DNA of 32,815 nucleotides from Thermodesulfovibrionales bacterium (GTDB taxonomy: Bacteria; Nitrospirota; Thermodesulfovibrionia; Thermodesulfovibrionales; UBA9159): contig DASRZP010000017.1 of NCBI GenBank assembly GCA_035686305.1, positions 1 to 32,815 on the forward strand. The letters are read 5' to 3'. Of the stretch, positions 14,484 through 21,582 are shown one piece after another. Below the pieces are notes generated by a model, which worked only from the letters and a program-made list of their open reading frames with translations, did not search any database and was not told where the DNA came from. Numbering within the stretch: position 1 is the first letter of the stretch; every line of letters starts with the position of its first letter. Position numbers and translations under genes: made by a program.

Positions 14484-17400
14484 ATGAATGTATCTCGCCG
14501 AAATTTTCTGAAGGTATCAGGTGGAACTCTCGCACTCAGCACGCTCGGGATTAACCTTGATCCGGTCAGGGCGTATGCCCAGGGGCTCAGGATAAAGGAC
14601 GCAAAGGAAACGACGACGGTATGTCCCTATTGCTCGGTGGGCTGCGGCATTCTCGTGCACGTAAAGGATGGGAAGGTCATCAATACCGAGGGTGATCCTG
14701 AGCACCCGATCAGCGAGGGCACGCTCTGTCCCAAGGGAGGTTCCGTGTATGAGATGGTAAACAATCCCCTGAGACTGACAAAGCCGAAGTACCGGGCAGC
14801 CGGTGCGACGGAATGGAAAGAGGTGGAATGGGACTGGGCCCTTGATCAGATCGCACGAAAGATCAAAGATACGAGGGACAGGACGTTTAAGGAAAAGGCC
14901 ATATCGAAAGTGAAAGAAAAGAGGGGCCAGCTCTCTTTGGACACGGCAGGCCTACCGGTCGAGGTTGAGACCACGGTCGAGAAGGAGTTTATCGTAAACA
15001 GGACAGACGGCATTGCCCATGTCGGCAGTGCTGCCCTTGACAACGAGGAATGTTACCTCCTCCAGAAGCTCATGCGTTCCTGGGGTCTTGTCTGGATAGA
15101 ACATCAGGCCCGAATATGACACTCGCCGACGGTAGCGGCTCTGGGAGAGTCGTTCGGTCGCGGCGCCATGACAAACCACTGGGTTGATCTCAAGAATGCG
15201 GACGTAATCCTTGTTATGGGCGGGAACCCCGCCTCAAACCACCCCGTCTCCATGAAGTGGATCTTGAGGGCAAGGGAGAGAGGCGCAAAGCTCATCGTCG
15301 TTGATCCCCGTTTCACGCAGACAGCCGCGAAGGCCGACATCTATGCACCGCTCCGTTCCGGTACCGACATCGCCTTCATCAACGGGATGATCAAGTACAT
15401 TATTGACAACGACCTCATTTTCAGTGACTATGTTGTCAACTATACCAATGCGTCCTTTCTCGTGAACCCTGACTTCAAGATGCCGGGAGAACTCGATGGT
15501 GTCTTCTCAGGGTATGATGAGAAGACGGCGAAGTACGACAAGAAGACGTGGTCCTTCCAGATGGACGAGAAGGGGCTCCCGAAAAGGGACATGTCGTTGA
15601 AAGACCCCCGTTGCGTCTATCAACTCCTCAGGAAACATGTCTCCCGGTACACTCCCGACGTCGTCTCCAATATTACGGGGACCCCGAAGGAAAAACTCGT
15701 AGAGGTGTACAAGACCTACGCTTCGACAGGGAGACCTGACAGGGCCGGAACAGAGTGCTATGCCATGGGATGGACCCAGCATACCGTCGGCGTCCAGAAC
15801 ATCAGGGCTTTCTCGATTGTCCAGCTCCTCCTCGGCAATATGGGCATCGCAGGGGGCGGAATCAATGCACTAAGGGGTGAGTCAAATGTCCAGGGAGGGA
15901 CGGACTACGGCCTCCTCTTCAATAATCTCACAGGGTACAATCCCACGCCCACAGCCTCACTGGTGGATTTGACTGCGTACATCGAAAAATACACACCGAA
16001 GACAAAGGAGCCGAAGAGTGTGAACTGGTGGGGAAACCGGAACAAGTACATCACCAGTTACCTCAAGGCGATCTATGGAGACAAGGCGACCAAGGATAAT
16101 GATTTCGGCTATGTCTGGCTTCCAAAACTCGACGAGGGCATGCAGGCCTCGTGGCTCCATCTCTTCTGGAACATGGGAATGGGAAAATTTGAAGGGTTCT
16201 TCGCGTGGGGCCAGAATCCGGCCTGTTCATCAGCTGCGGCCGCCAAGGTCAGACAGGTTATGGGGAAGCTGAAGTGGATGGTCAACGTGAATCTCTACGA
16301 CAACGAGACCGCTTCTTTCTGGAGAGGGCCGGACATGAAACCTGAAAATGTCCAGACGGAAGTATTTCTTCTCCCTGCCTGTTCCTCGATAGAGAAGGAA
16401 GGCAGCCTGTCCAATTCCAGCCGTCTTGCCCAGTGGAGGTACAAGGCAGTTGACCCAGTCGGCCAATCCATGCCTGATGCGGAAATCATGAATGAACTCT
16501 ATTACAGGGTAAAGAAACTCTACCAGAAGGAGGGGGGCAAATTTCCGGCGCCGATCCTGAATCTGACGTGGAACTACGGAGAAAAGGACAAGGACGGCAA
16601 GATAAAACACCTCAACATCCACGATGTGGCAAAAGAGATCAACGGGTATTATCTTGAGGATGTATACGACAAGAAGGTTGAGCCTCCCAAGTTATTGGGG
16701 AAGAAAGGACAGCTCGTCACGAATTTCGTCAGCCTCCAGGCTGATGGAACGACGTCTTCCGGAAACTGGCTCTACTGCGGCAGCTACACCCAGAAGGACG
16801 ACAAGATCATCAACATGATGGCCAGGAGAGGAAAGGAGGATCCGACGGGTCTCGGCCTCTATCCGAACTGGGCATGGGCATGGCCCCTCAACAGAAGAAT
16901 AATTTACAACAGGGCATCCGTTGATCTCAAGGGTAATCCATGGGACCCCAAACGCGCAGTGATAAAATGGAACCCGACAAAGGAAAACCCCGCGACCGGA
17001 AAGCCGGGTATATGGGAGGGGGACGTACCGGATGGTCCTGCGCCTCCATTGTCTGATGAGAAGGGAGGCAAACTGCCCTTCATCATGAAGCCCGACGGAG
17101 TGGCTTCTATTTTTGGACCGGGGCTTGCCGATGGGCCCTTCCCTGAGCACTATGAGCCGCTGGAATGCCCTGTCCAGGAAAACCTCATGTCAAAGAAGCA
17201 GAGAATAAATCCGACGGTTTCGAAGATCATGCAGGATATCTCTCATTTCTCATGCGATATTCGCTATCCGTACGTTGCGACGACCTACAGGGTCACGGAG
17301 CACTGGCAGACAGGCGTTATGACACGACATACACCGTGGTTGCTTGAAATGCAGCCCCAGATGTTTGTCGAGATGAGCAAGGAGCTCGCTGCGGAAAAGG

Positions 17401-17663
17401 GCATTAAGAACGGCGATAAGGTGAAGGTCTCCTCGGGCCGCGGCATGTTGACAGCAGTGGCCGTGGTGACCGACAGGTTAAAACCGTTTAAGGTGATGAA
17501 TCAGACGGTCCATCAGATCGGTATGCCATGGCATTTTGGGTGGCAATACCCTGAGGACGGAAGCGGCGGCGACAGCGCGAACATCCTCACGCCGTTTATT
17601 GGAGACCCGAATACCTCGATACCGGAATCAAAGGCCTTTATGGCCAATGTCGAGAAGGCATAG
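14484..17663 (+). CDS. fdnG: Formate dehydrogenase-N alpha subunit, selenocysteine-containing (UGA at codon 212)
   Basis: This is the molybdenum/tungsten bis-pterin catalytic subunit that oxidises formate to CO2 in the periplasm (1059 residues counting Sec). A Tat signal SRRNFLK is at residues 4-10, followed by a hydrophobic stretch. The [4Fe-4S] ligands are C47, C50, C54 and C82. An in-frame TGA at 15117-15119 interrupts the frame inside ARI-U-HSPTVAALGESFGRG. This is exactly the Sec196 site of E. coli FdnG, and both halves are in the same frame, so this is Sec and not a broken gene. GAGGAGGG precedes the ATG. fdnH follows after 11 bases and fdnI overlaps fdnH, giving the FdnGHI set. Selenocysteine machinery (selA, selB, selC) and fdhD are not in the window. 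Confidence 0.96.
15134..15154 (+). promoter_or_regulatory. Bacterial SECIS hairpin for Sec212 of FdnG
   Basis: Starting 14 bases after the UGA, AGCGGCTCT (15134-15142) pairs with AGAGTCGTT (15146-15154) around a GGG loop, 9 base pairs with two G-U pairs. If the top pair opens, the loop becomes five bases. G15132 can pair with C15155, leaving U15133 bulged, reminiscent of the bulged U of E. coli SECIS elements. It lies inside the coding region, as bacterial SECIS elements do for SelB recruitment. Confidence 0.65.
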
Positions 17664-17674
17664 GGGGTGCTATC

Positions 17675-18445
17675 ATGGCGAGAATGGGAATACTCGTTTC
17701 TCCGGAATTGTGCATAGGGTGCAGGGCCTGTCAGGTTGCCTGCAAGTCGTGGAACCAGCTTCCCGGGGACAAGACCATCAACAGGGGAGGCTTCGAAAAT
17801 CCACCCGATCTCACTCCCCATCTCTATAACAGGATCCACTATCTTGAGGTGCCCTCCGAAAAAGACGCAACGCGGTGGCTTTTTCTGAACCAGCGCTGCA
17901 TGCACTGTGATGACGCAGGCTGCATGAAGATCTGTCCTGCCCCCGGAGCACTGTACAGGACAAAGGAAGGCGCTGTCGGGACCAATAAAGACAAATGCAT
18001 CGGATGCAAACTCTGTGCGGTCGGATGTCCCTTTAACGTTCCACGTTACGATGAGAAAGACAAGATTTCGAAATGCCATCTCTGCTTCGACAGGATCGCA
18101 AACGGACTTCAGCCTGCATGCACAAAGACCTGTCCTACGGGTGCTCTGAAATACGGAGACAGGGACGGGCTCATCGCTGCAGCCGGGAAAGTGGGCTATG
18201 GAAAGCTCTACGGACAGTCTGACCTCGGCGGACTCGGGGCTCTCTATGCATTCAAGGATGCACCGAAACTCTATGGCATGAATGAAAAACCCGCGATACC
18301 AGAGACCGTCGTCTTCTGGCATAAAGTGCTCAAACCCCTGTCATTTATAGGACTGGGAGGCGTCGTGGCTGCATCGCTGGTGCACTATGTTGCCTTTGGC
18401 CCCCATAAGATAAAAGAAGAAGAGGAGGTGAGGAAAGATGGATAA
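17675..18445 (+). CDS. fdnH: Formate dehydrogenase-N beta (iron-sulfur) subunit
   Basis: The 256-residue protein carries four ferredoxin-like cysteine clusters: C13-x2-C16-x2-C19-x3-C23, then CMHCDDAGCMKICP, then CIGCKLCAVGCP, then CHLCF with CTKTCP. These make four [4Fe-4S] centres carrying electrons from FdnG to the membrane. A single C-terminal hydrophobic helix (about residues 225-245, FIGLGGVVAASLVHYVAFG) anchors it, as in E. coli FdnH. It has no signal peptide of its own and would be exported together with Tat-marked FdnG. AGGGGGTG precedes the ATG. The last 8 bases overlap fdnI. Confidence 0.95.
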   Translation: MARMGILVSPELCIGCRACQVACKSWNQLPGDKTINRGGFENPPDLTPHLYNRIHYLEVPSEKDATRWLFLNQRCMHCDDAGCMKICPAPGALYRTKEGAVGTNKDKCIGCKLCAVGCPFNVPRYDEKDKISKCHLCFDRIANGLQPACTKTCPTGALKYGDRDGLIAAAGKVGYGKLYGQSDLGGLGALYAFKDAPKLYGMNEKPAIPETVVFWHKVLKPLSFIGLGGVVAASLVHYVAFGPHKIKEEEEVRKDG

Positions 18446-19052
18446 GATGGTAAAGAAATATAACGCATTCGCGATTCTGGACCACTGGGTTCTGGCCCTG
18501 AGTTGCATCGTCCTTGCTGTTCAGGGATTTGGTTTTCTTTTCCATATCGAGTCTGTCGGTTCCTTTTTCGGCGGGTTTGAGTCCATGAGGATGTGGCATA
18601 ATTACTTGGGTATCGCCTTCTCGGTCTCCCTCCTCTGCTCACTCTTCTTATTCCTGAAAGAGTCCCTCACCTTTGACGCTGACGACATCGGATGGATCAA
18701 GGTACTTGGAGGCTATCTCTCCCATAAAGTAACGGTACCGCCCATGGGGAAGGTTAATACCGGTCAGAAGTTCTATTTCCTTGGCCTGGTCGTTTTTAGT
18801 GCCGGTATTGTTGGATCCGGTTTGGTCCTCTGGCTTATGGCTGACAACAAGATATACGTAATGTATTCTCATCTAATCCACAATATTAGCTTTGTCATGT
18901 TGATGATTTTGGTCCCCGCCCATATGTATCTGGGCTCCCTCGCTAACCCCGGGACATTCAGGCTCATGATCTATGGAACGGCTCCCTATTGGTGGGCGAA
19001 GAAGGTATCTCCAAAGTGGATATCTGAAGTGGAGAAAGAACATAAAGCTTGA
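18438..19052 (+). CDS. fdnI: Formate dehydrogenase-N gamma subunit (cytochrome b556)
   Basis: This 204-residue membrane protein has four predicted helices. Candidate heme ligands are H16 (ILDHWVLA), H54 (MWHNYLG), and H145, H148 or H162 in the last helix region (MYSHLIHNI, PAHMYLG). Its role is to take electrons from FdnH through two b hemes and reduce menaquinone or ubiquinone. The start overlaps fdnH and is served by GAGGAGGTGAGG inside the fdnH end, so the two are translationally coupled. Cytochrome b subunits of hydrogenases have a related fold, but the gene order fixes this one as a formate dehydrogenase. Confidence 0.93.
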   Translation: MDKMVKKYNAFAILDHWVLALSCIVLAVQGFGFLFHIESVGSFFGGFESMRMWHNYLGIAFSVSLLCSLFLFLKESLTFDADDIGWIKVLGGYLSHKVTVPPMGKVNTGQKFYFLGLVVFSAGIVGSGLVLWLMADNKIYVMYSHLIHNISFVMLMILVPAHMYLGSLANPGTFRLMIYGTAPYWWAKKVSPKWISEVEKEHKA

Positions 19053-19101: not shown

Positions 19102-19142
19102 GATCCCCCGTGTCACACGAAACCGGAGTGACACGGGGGATC
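19102..19142. repeat. Perfect 15-bp inverted repeat between fdnI and the selenoprotein gene
   Basis: GATCCCCCGTGTCAC (19102-19116) and its exact reverse complement (19128-19142) flank an 11-base loop. The RNA hairpin would be very stable. Neither side has a T-run, so it is not a standard intrinsic terminator. It ends 23 bases before the next start codon. It may set relative expression by mRNA processing or protection, be a Rho-type or partial terminator, or be a protein-binding palindrome or mobile repeat. Confidence 0.7.
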
Positions 19143-19165: not shown

Positions 19166-19756
19166 ATGAGAAAGCTGTTCATCTTTGCAATCCTGTTCTT
19201 CACAGCATCCATCTCTTTTGCCGAGGATAAGCGGTATGACGTTCCTATCGGGGATTCGCCGGTCCTGGGGCCTGCTGATGCGCCAGTCACGATCATCGAG
19301 TTTCTCGATTTCCAATGACCCCACTGTGTTGCGGCCGGTCCGACCGTGAAGAAGATACTGTCTGTGTATAAGGGAAAGATCCGCCTTGTGATCAAGAACT
19401 ATCCGTACAAATACCGCGACTTTTCTCATATCGCTGCCGAGGCCTCTCTCGCAGCCGGAGACCAGAACAAATACTGGGAGATGCACGACCTCCTCCTTAA
19501 GAAGTCTCCTCGACTGGATCGCGCAAGTCTGATCCAGTATGCGAAGGAGCTAGGTCTCGACATCAATAGGTTTACCGAAGCCCTCGATACCGTGAAACAT
19601 TCAGCGCTCATTGAGAGGGACAAGAAGCTTGCTGTCGATCTCGACCTTTACAACACTCCGACCTTCTTCATCAATGGTAGGAAGGTGGTAGGGAACAGAC
19701 CTTACGAATATATCAAGAACATTGTCGACGAGGAGCTCAAGAATGCTAAGAAATAG
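19166..19756 (+). CDS. Secreted DsbA-like thioredoxin-fold selenoprotein (UGA at codon 51)
   Basis: The frame starts at ATG 19166 (AAAGGAAA upstream) and runs 196 residues with an in-frame TGA at 19316-19318. Residues 1-19 are a signal peptide ending SFA. After PADAPVTIIEFLDFQ comes the UGA, then PHC. This is the CPHC active site of DsbA-family disulfide oxidoreductases with Sec in place of the first Cys. The cis-Pro motif NTPTFF is at 163-168 (Pro165) and FINGRKVVG follows, as in DsbA/Thioredoxin_4 proteins. Both halves are in one frame and well conserved, and the genome clearly uses Sec (FdnG), so a real selenoprotein is far more likely than a nonsense mutation. The gene sits between fdnI and a diheme peroxidase gene that overlaps its 3' end by 14 bases. 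The substrate is unknown. Confidence 0.9.
19336..19346 (+). promoter_or_regulatory. Candidate SECIS hairpin apex for the DsbA-like selenoprotein
   Basis: CGGT (19336-19339) pairs with ACCG (19343-19346) around CCG, 17 bases after the UGA. A GGUC element lies at the apex, recalling the GGUCU loop of the E. coli fdhF SECIS. The lower stem is not obvious by eye, so this is a weak call. Confidence 0.35.
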
Positions 19757-20822
19757 ATTCCTCTCTTTCGGGTCTTTCCTTCTCTCTTGCGTCCTCTTCC
19801 TCTCCTCTTTCTCAGGTCCTGCATGGGCCGGTCACCTTGAGCCATTCACGTCTGTTCCGGTACCCGAGATAAACCGCCAGACTCCCGAAAAGATCGAACT
19901 CGGGAAGACGCTCTTTTTTGACAGGCGTCTTTCCGGCGATGGCACGATGAGCTGTGTGACCTGTCACGATCCGGAGCAGGCATTTTCCGACGGCCTTGAT
20001 ATTTCCCTGAGTTACCCTACGACGAAGAATTGGCGAAACTCCCCGACACTGATCAATGTGGCTTTCCAGAAATACCTCTTCCATGACGGGAGGGCGGAGA
20101 CTCTGGAAGAGCAGGCGCTATTTCCGATGATGTCCTCATTCGAGATGAATCTGAATCTCGATTATCTTGAGGAAAAGATACGAGTCGTTCCCGAGTATAA
20201 TAAAGCGTTTATGGATGTCTTTGGCGGTGATGTGACAAGGGAAAGAATTGCCATGGCCATCGCTGCCTTCGAGCGGACTTTGATTTCTGTCCATGCGCCT
20301 CTGGACAACTATCTGAAAGGGGATAAGGATGCGCTGTCACCTGATGCGAAAAAAGGGTTCGAGATATTCACAGGGAAAGGGAAATGCTCTGAATGCCATT
20401 ACGGCGTCAATCTCGCTGACGACAAATTCTATGCACTCCACGTTCCTGAAAATGCCGCATATCAAAATGATCCAAGGGTCATCGCGACGAGAAGATTCGT
20501 TGCCAAGATCTATCATTATGAAGGCTATAAAAATCTGAATGAGGACCCTGGAAGATACTTGATCACAAAAGATAAGAAAGACTGGAAGGCCTTCAAGACG
20601 CCGACGTTGAGAGAGATTGCGAGAACGGCACCTTACATGCATAACGGTATCTTCAAGACCATCGATGAGGTGATAGAATTCTTTGACAGAGGCGGCGGTC
20701 CGGGCAACAAGAGTTTAAAGCCCCTGGGGCTGAGCAGTGATGAGAAGAGGTCCCTGCGGACGTTCCTGATGGAAGCCCTGAGCGGGGAACCGATCGTCAT
20801 CAGGTATCCTGAGATCCCCTGA
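19743..20822 (+). CDS. Periplasmic diheme cytochrome c peroxidase / MauG-family protein
   Basis: The protein has 359 residues with a signal peptide (1-29, ending PAWA). Two c-heme sites are present: CVTCH at 71-75 and CSECH at 215-219. The blocks LGKTLFFDRRLSGDGTMSC, NSPTLINVAFQKYLFHDGRAETLEEQA and TPTLREIARTAPYMHNG are shared by bacterial cytochrome c peroxidases and MauG. Known members reduce hydrogen peroxide to water with electrons from small cytochromes, or oxidise protein substrates (MauG). Which applies here cannot be decided. The ATG at 19743 is chosen because GAGGAG lies about 9 bases before it and it places the signal peptide at the terminus. It overlaps the selenoprotein gene by 14 bases, implying coupled expression. 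Confidence 0.92.
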   Translation: MLRNRFLSFGSFLLSCVLFLSSFSGPAWAGHLEPFTSVPVPEINRQTPEKIELGKTLFFDRRLSGDGTMSCVTCHDPEQAFSDGLDISLSYPTTKNWRNSPTLINVAFQKYLFHDGRAETLEEQALFPMMSSFEMNLNLDYLEEKIRVVPEYNKAFMDVFGGDVTRERIAMAIAAFERTLISVHAPLDNYLKGDKDALSPDAKKGFEIFTGKGKCSECHYGVNLADDKFYALHVPENAAYQNDPRVIATRRFVAKIYHYEGYKNLNEDPGRYLITKDKKDWKAFKTPTLREIARTAPYMHNGIFKTIDEVIEFFDRGGGPGNKSLKPLGLSSDEKRSLRTFLMEALSGEPIVIRYPEIP

Positions 20823-20829
20823 GTTCCCG

Positions 20830-21582
20830 ATGGATATCGAAGGAATCGCTATCGAAAAACCCCATCTGAAGGATATTCTCAGGCTCTATGAGAAGGCGAC
20901 AGCCTTTGTTTCAAGGGTATCTGCCCTTGCCAGGGGAATTCCCTTTGACGATGTGGCTTATCCCTCTCTCCTGATTGATCCGATTTTTGAAACCTTCCTA
21001 TCGGTTTTTGACTTGGCAGAGGAAACCCTTTTCCCCCTGAAGGAGGCATTGAAGTCCGGGCAGATCGACTTCACGAGGCTTCCGAGGAATGAACTGGCTG
21101 TCTCTTCTCTACCCTATCACGAAGACGAGCTTGGAGTGGTTCTCTATCTCCTGGGTAAACCTTACTTCAGCCGCTTGAGGGAATTGCACAACCTTGATAA
21201 TGTTTTTTGGGAGAAGGGACGGTGTCCGCTCTGTAGAGCAAAAGCGTCCTTTGCAGCAATTGATCACGAGGGCAAGAGAGACCTTTGTTGCTCATACTGT
21301 CTTACGATAGGGACCTACCGGCGGATAGGCTGCCCTCTCTGCTCCACCGATGACAGCTCACTGATAAAGATCTTTACCGCTGAAGAAGAGAATGGGTTCA
21401 GGATCGACGCTTGTGACCGGTGTGGTTCCTATGTGAAGACCGTAAATCAGGCAATCCTGGATAACGACAGTCTCACTCCCGAGCTTGCGGACCTCGTAAG
21501 CCTGCCCTTGGACATCATAGCCCAGGGGAAAGGCTACCATCGACTTGCCCGGAACCCCGTCGGTATGCTACGGATGGTGTAG
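20830..21582 (+). CDS. fdhE: Formate dehydrogenase accessory protein FdhE
   Basis: FdhE is a cytoplasmic protein needed to produce active respiratory formate dehydrogenases; it interacts with the catalytic subunit before export. The 250-residue protein has an alpha-helical N-terminal half. The C-terminal half carries the family's four paired cysteine motifs (CPLC, CCSYC, CPLC, CDRC), which bind iron in rubredoxin-like folds. The CDRCGSYVKT ending is characteristic. It lies 7 bases after the peroxidase stop and has no strong ribosome binding site of its own. Its placement at the end of this gene train argues that the selenoprotein and the peroxidase inside the train belong to the same functional unit. 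Confidence 0.9.
   Translation: MDIEGIAIEKPHLKDILRLYEKATAFVSRVSALARGIPFDDVAYPSLLIDPIFETFLSVFDLAEETLFPLKEALKSGQIDFTRLPRNELAVSSLPYHEDELGVVLYLLGKPYFSRLRELHNLDNVFWEKGRCPLCRAKASFAAIDHEGKRDLCCSYCLTIGTYRRIGCPLCSTDDSSLIKIFTAEEENGFRIDACDRCGSYVKTVNQAILDNDSLTPELADLVSLPLDIIAQGKGYHRLARNPVGMLRMV

Follow-up and report, generated by a model that had tools for sequence, protein, structure and literature searches.

How is a bacterial gene to be read when a TGA codon stands in the middle of its frame, exactly at the first position of a thioredoxin-type active site, and what would the product of such a gene do in the cell? This question is raised by positions 19166 to 19756 of the window, that is, the whole stretch of 32,815 nucleotides analysed here. 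The window forms a single contig in a 3.2-Mb genome that is 98% complete, and its nearest protein relatives are found in Nitrospirota MAGs. In the following, the gene is called dsbU and its product DsbU, a name coined in this analysis.

Reading Frame and Selenocysteine Codon

The dsbU frame opens with an ATG at 19166, contains one in-frame TGA (19316-19318, in the context DFQ-U-PHC) and ends with a TAG at 19754-19756. A first-pass annotation of this DNA had described a signal-peptide protein with a TGA at the first position of a CPHC-type site, and the single frame running from 19166 to 19756 bears this description out. When read through the TGA, the protein matches the family profiles Thioredoxin_4 (9.6e-30) and DSBA (1.9e-20), and its N-terminus is signal-peptide-like. 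Standard annotation had been expected to lose both signal peptide and active site, and the open reading frame list obtained with table 11 indeed calls only 19346-19756 (136 aa, GTG start), which contains neither. The gene dsbU is an example of a gene class that is clipped by standard annotation. The features of the locus are collected in Table 1.

Table 1. Features of the fdh-dsbU region, with positions in the window
Feature	Position	Strand	Remarks
fdhA, FDH alpha subunit, Tat signal, selenoprotein (TGA 15117-15119)	14484..17663	+	
FdhA C895, at the aligned position of switch-disulfide C845 in D. vulgaris FdhA	17166..17168	+	
FdhA C924, at the aligned position of switch-disulfide C872 in D. 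vulgaris FdhA	17253..17255	+	column closest to DsbU presence
fdhB, iron-sulfur subunit	17675..18445	+	
fdhC, cytochrome b561-type membrane subunit	18438..19052	+	
Perfect 15-bp inverted repeat between fdhC and dsbU	19102..19142	+	fold z -6.06; without T run
dsbU, secreted DsbA/Thioredoxin_4-fold selenoprotein (predicted), 196 aa, U51-P-H-C54, loop NTPTFFING	19166..19756	+	
dsbU signal peptide, 19 aa, MRKLFIFAILFFTASISFA; cleavage point placed by eye	19166..19222	+	sequence; N-termini of relatives variable, of the same type
dsbU Sec-UGA, codon 51	19316..19318	+	TGA conservation
Bacterial SECIS apical stem-loop, loop GGUCC at 19337-19341	19330..19348	+	synonymous constraint at codons 56-61; covariation
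MauG/CCP-like dihaem c-type cytochrome, signal peptide; start overlaps dsbU stop by 14 nt	19743..20822	+	
FdhE-like FDH accessory protein (weak family match)	20830..21582	+	

When 84,980 species genomes were scanned for relatives of dsbU, 51 loci came up. In all 45 relatives with 62-79% identity, codon 51 is TGA and the frame has no further stop, so that the codon is neither a chance event nor a sequencing error; the remaining loci, at 46% identity or less, have Cys at this position. Moreover, a profile search of 396 Nitrospirota genomes gave 65 matches above 255 bits, all with TGA (stops were counted in all of them, and the position at codon 51 was verified where loci were extracted), while matches below 185 bits are mostly without stop. 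Among 395 genomes of Desulfobacterota, the phylum of Desulfofustis, codon 51 is TGA in 13/13 matches above 203 bits, and the matches next in rank (198 bits or less) have Cys. The resulting Sec clade spans Nitrospirota and Desulfobulbales/Desulfobacterota at about 44-79% identity, with TGA in every member checked and no Cys orthologue among the members checked in the two phyla. The Cys relatives (at most 46% identity and 198 bits) lack the SECIS element described below and, in those inspected, the dihaem partner. The pattern anticipated by the first-pass annotation, TGA in Sec users and Cys in relatives lacking Sec, is therefore found in its first half; Cys occurs only in distant lineages and not within the clade.

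Two apparent irregularities were set aside: a match without TGA (G274) belongs to a gene cut by the contig end, and in G378 and G364, where a second TGA had been suspected, the aligned protein holds one TGA, at codon 51. The motif itself varies in a few places of the Sec clade, with U-A-H-C in Desulfobulbaceae LH_M57 (L038:5151-5162) and U-A-F-C in L128. Some of the weaker Nitrospirota matches also carry TGA (L107-L109); they form a separate Sec DsbA-like group with U-P-Y-C and without the dihaem partner. In two Desulfobacterota loci (L137, L138), a related DsbA-like protein is encoded twice, side by side, once with Sec and once with Cys, which may offer a natural comparison of the two residues.

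SECIS Element, Selenocysteine Machinery and Fold

The stem-loop directly behind the dsbU UGA, with its G-containing apical loop, has the form of a bacterial SECIS element. Folding of the single sequence was uninformative, and constraint and pairing counts across relatives were therefore used instead. In the window's copy the stem contains a C-A mismatch, and taken singly this copy shows no exceptional stability (z 0.42); RNAalifold places the helix in a shifted register. Across relatives, the top five ranks of synonymous constraint among 145 tested codons are held by codons 56-60, with observed minus expected values of 0.59-0.69 against a mean of 0.08 (sd 0.14), and codon 61 ranks seventh. In addition, 88% of the stem cells are paired, compared with 19-46% in slid registers, and covariation is seen between columns 20-28 and 19-29, with C-G/U-A and G-C/G-U/A-U exchanges. 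The element is kept in Sec members of only 44-47% identity (L130-L133) and missing from equally distant Cys relatives (L134, L135).

The source genome is equipped for Sec insertion. The selA, selB and selC genes to which the first-pass annotation had pointed are represented by SelA (609.1 bits), SelB (378.8) and tRNA-Sec (70.6), all above cut-offs. Among the 396 Nitrospirota genomes, selA is present in 61 of the 64 with dsbU and in 112 of the 332 others. Furthermore, the cluster holds a second selenoprotein gene, fdhA, with an in-frame TGA at 15117-15119.

An AlphaFold2 model of DsbU, computed from an alignment, reached a pLDDT of 88.6 and a pTM of 0.82. In the PDB it is matched best by DsbA-like Thioredoxin_4 proteins and BdbD (3gyk, 3eu3, 6eez), with TM-scores of 0.74-0.78 (query length) and 26-30% identity. 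The residue before the conserved cis-Pro is Thr, not Val (loop NTPTFFING). Profile, fold, CxxC-type site and cis-Pro loop all agree with a DsbA-like/Thioredoxin_4 protein, and we are confident that the modelled fold is DsbA/BdbD-like.

The proposal of a periplasmic DsbA-fold selenoprotein thus stands on four independent lines, namely the invariant TGA, the SECIS constraint, the Sec machinery and the fold. It is extremely improbable that the TGA really terminates translation, betrays a pseudogene or stems from a sequencing error, as the mechanical table 11 reading of the frame, the one point on that side, would have it. This reading is opposed by TGA at the same codon in each clade member checked in two phyla, by the intact frame on both sides, by the SECIS constraint and by the Sec machinery; the invariance of the TGA among relatives in itself rules out a pseudogene or sequencing error. 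Judged from these sequence comparisons, there is very little doubt that the TGA would be read as Sec, and the product is almost certainly an exported, selenium-containing redox protein.

Gene Neighbourhood and the Dihaem Partner

The gene order in the window is fdhA(Sec)-fdhB-fdhC-dsbU-dihaem-fdhE. This formate dehydrogenase (FDH) context, overlooked in the first-pass annotation, likely carries the function of DsbU. In most loci fdh genes lie 5′ of dsbU, with a membrane subunit of two kinds, and FdhA of the same subfamily was found in 12/12 dsbU genomes searched, including the unlinked cases G047 and G079. The gene cluster is also present in the cultured and named strains Desulfofustis glycolicus DSM 9705 and Desulfopila aestuarii DSM 18488.

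The dihaem gene follows dsbU directly in 42/42 loci of the 84,980-genome scan with enough sequence, in 13/13 Desulfobacterota loci and in nearly all additional Nitrospirota loci. One genome (G219, L102:5977-7290) carries dsbU twice in tandem, once with U-P-H-C and once with U-T-H-C, and lacks the dihaem gene. Two genomes, complete or nearly so, appear to be Thermodesulfovibrio-like (L103/L104); there the cassette of dsbU and dihaem gene stands alone and the same-subfamily FdhA is encoded elsewhere.

A hairpin occupies the place between fdhC and dsbU in most relatives, unrelated in sequence, similar in form and often terminator-like with a T tract; read-through or attenuation may therefore set the level of dsbU and the dihaem gene. 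The hairpin may separate the expression of the two groups of genes, which counts against a cassette dedicated to FDH.

The dihaem partner shares with the MauG/bacterial cytochrome c peroxidase family (PF03150) the family domain and two CXXCH motifs. In an alignment with the dihaem enzyme 6e1c, the position of the Tyr that in MauG, the enzyme of TTQ biosynthesis, is the axial ligand to the second haem is held by Phe in 75, Leu in 5 and Ile in 1 of 82 partners, and no Met was found at the CCP ligand place of the aligned partner. Strict membership in MauG or CCP was rejected, because neither the Tyr nor the Met ligand is found. From its family, we infer that the partner may be a peroxidase.

The strict pairing and the 14-nt overlap of the two genes could also mean that DsbU is a maturation factor for the dihaem cytochrome, which would reduce the CXXCH thiols or make disulfides. 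A precedent exists in the mau gene cluster, where the thioredoxin-like MauD is paired with MauG. To our knowledge, however, maturation of c-type cytochromes normally needs no dedicated Sec enzyme; in addition, the Tyr of MauG is missing from the dihaem protein, and a MauD-like helper would leave unexplained the link to the FdhA cysteine pair described below. We regard such a helper as improbable.

Linkage of DsbU with the FdhA Switch Cysteines

According to the accessible text of two sources (PMC13397495, PMC11323313), D. vulgaris FdhAB is O2-stable and almost inactive when C845 and C872 form a disulfide, with a KM for formate of about 2.5 mM, and active, with a KM of 17 uM, when the pair is reduced. 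The primary source for this allosteric redox switch is given as reference 214 of PMC13397495. In the same text, the switch is reduced in vitro by DTT and the physiological reductant protein is unnamed.

Within one subfamily, FdhA sequences from genomes with and without DsbU were compared after removal of near-duplicates and of rows with unknown status. The test left out G264 (C/G at the switch positions, no DsbU), whose reading frame is broken, as well as G184 and G215, whose contigs end directly behind fdhC. Presence or absence of DsbU was taken from one profile search across genomes many of which are MAGs, with contig breaks checked in example genomes only. On this basis, both cysteines are retained in 53/53 FdhA sequences from carriers, and 10/19 from non-carriers no longer have the pair (Fisher p 1.7e-7, with kinship ignored). 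A Pagel-type fit gave an LR of 33.6 and a p of about 9e-7, a rough value since parameter bounds were hit, and a tree-aware test of independent pairs found 3-5 pairs that agree with expectation and 0 that oppose it, which is not significant (p 0.06-0.25).

More telling than these tests of a prior site is a scan in which no site was chosen beforehand. Specifically, of the 260 FdhA columns that never vary in carriers, C924 shows the most departures in non-carriers (10/19), R927, three residues away, is third and C895 is tenth. The same relation appears within single genera, where a genome with DsbU has both cysteines and one without has lost the second (G156, CC, versus G107, CA; G118, CC, versus G116, CG). 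The FDH clusters of non-carriers typically read fdhABC-fdhE, the cassette being absent. In G254 (L204:6148-6475), decayed remnants of the cassette, 27 residues of dsbU and two C-terminal fragments of the dihaem gene, lie between fdhC and fdhE, and the switch positions of FdhA are S/V. The pair is kept in 9/19 FdhA without DsbU, the whole family f11 among them. Since the dihaem gene is lost together with dsbU, the association is not assignable to DsbU alone. The way in which DsbU presence tracks the FdhA switch suggests, at the level of sequence, that DsbU may operate it.

A common cause has to be considered here. Cassette and switch could provide parallel protection against O2 and peroxide with no direct contact, and lineages with less O2 exposure would lose all of it: the two are lost together, a common low-O2 lifestyle could remove both, and no other neighbour of dsbU is as constant as the dihaem partner, even where FDH is encoded elsewhere, as in the Thermodesulfovibrio-type loci. 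Direct action fits better with the first rank of C924 among the 260 columns and with the usual position of the cassette within FDH gene clusters, and we consider parallel protection rather unlikely. The same doubtful standing is given to what DsbU would then do, namely repair or reduce other periplasmic thiols or support the dihaem enzyme.

A Possible Role in Formate Dehydrogenase Reactivation

The reading that we prefer, direct action on FDH, is that DsbU reactivates the FDH switch by reducing its disulfide, with peroxide being removed by the dihaem enzyme; sequence comparison gives it a nearly even chance. In this model, the UGA of dsbU would be decoded as Sec via the SECIS element directly behind it, and DsbU and the dihaem peroxidase-like protein would form a cassette serving specifically the periplasmic Sec FDH. 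A CcdA-type membrane protein would keep the low-potential Sec-Cys pair of DsbU reduced, and reduced DsbU would then attack the C895-C924 disulfide on the FdhA surface. FDH would thus be switched on again after transient oxidation, with the dihaem enzyme clearing peroxide alongside. In its broader form the idea is more tentative: the Sec-only DsbA lineage might be the dedicated physiological reductant of the periplasmic Sec FDH switch, and the dihaem peroxidase the third member of its O2 protection.

The direction of the reaction is a separate matter. Sec at the attacking position lowers the redox potential and favours reduction. The source genome encodes a CcdA-like membrane protein, a possible donor for DsbU, and a VKOR-Thioredoxin_4 fusion (L213:823-1842, contig C103) that is probably a general disulfide-forming enzyme; general oxidation would therefore have an enzyme of its own. 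Sec, the Thr-cis-Pro loop, the CcdA-like donor and the VKOR fusion together argue that DsbU would work in the reducing direction. That DsbU instead oxidizes periplasmic thiols in general, as DsbA does, and happens to use Sec, is very unlikely. Its DsbA/BdbD-like fold would suit such a role, and UPHC equals the CPHC active site of E. coli DsbA except for Sec. The VKOR fusion, Thr in place of Val and the effect of Sec on the potential speak against it, and tracking of one FdhA cysteine would not be expected of a general oxidase.

The matter is of some consequence, as the FDH switch sets the active or the O2-stable state of an enzyme wanted for CO2 reduction, and its operation in the laboratory relies on DTT. 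A natural protein that works the switch would, if the proposal is true, answer an open question and serve as a tool; one selenoprotein would control another. Since named cultured strains carry the gene cluster, the hypothesis is testable.

Comparison with Known Systems

Selenoproteins of the DsbU kind are not new, because DsbA-like UxxC selenoproteins have been known since 2005, when they were described from the Sargasso Sea (PMC1088965); they were later reported in several anaerobes (Zhang 2006, PMC1794560) and are listed in a review table as PF01323, "DsbA-like protein form 1" (PMC13188914). As far as the accessible text of these sources goes, DsbU equals the published proteins in fold, in Sec at the first UxxC position, in a SECIS element behind the UGA and in anaerobic hosts. 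The same text defines the family by motif and count, without operon, partner or substrate, and assigns no function. Going by those descriptions, DsbU is set apart by a clade in which only Sec occurs, by the constant dihaem partner and by its association with FDH; it offers a specific candidate substrate, down to the exact cysteine pair.

Among NCBIfam families, the best match of DsbU is NF041057 (Rcas_1661 family thioredoxin-like (seleno)lipoprotein), which has Sec or Cys members and aligns over the whole domain. At 94.6 bits, DsbU falls short of the curated cut-off of 190; it is shorter, and no lipobox is seen in its signal peptide. Other Sec/Cys relatives score similarly to or above DsbU on this profile. 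The structures 3gyk, 3eu3 and 6eez are alike in fold; unlike DsbU, they are all Cys proteins with other partners.

Literature searches, mostly of freely accessible papers, found no link between DsbA and FDH or between a selenoprotein and MauG; neither the Sec-only clade with its fixed dihaem partner nor its link to the FDH switch was found in the literature searched. What is new, accordingly, is that the DsbU clade uses Sec throughout and comes with a MauG/CCP-like dihaem enzyme, in most cases downstream of Sec FDH genes. New as well is the observation that DsbU presence tracks the FdhA cysteine pair equivalent to the O2-protection disulfide of D. vulgaris. Both cysteines of the D. vulgaris FdhAB switch stand at aligned positions in the FdhA of the window, the switch behaviour itself being, in the accessible text of the sources, that of the D. 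vulgaris enzyme only.
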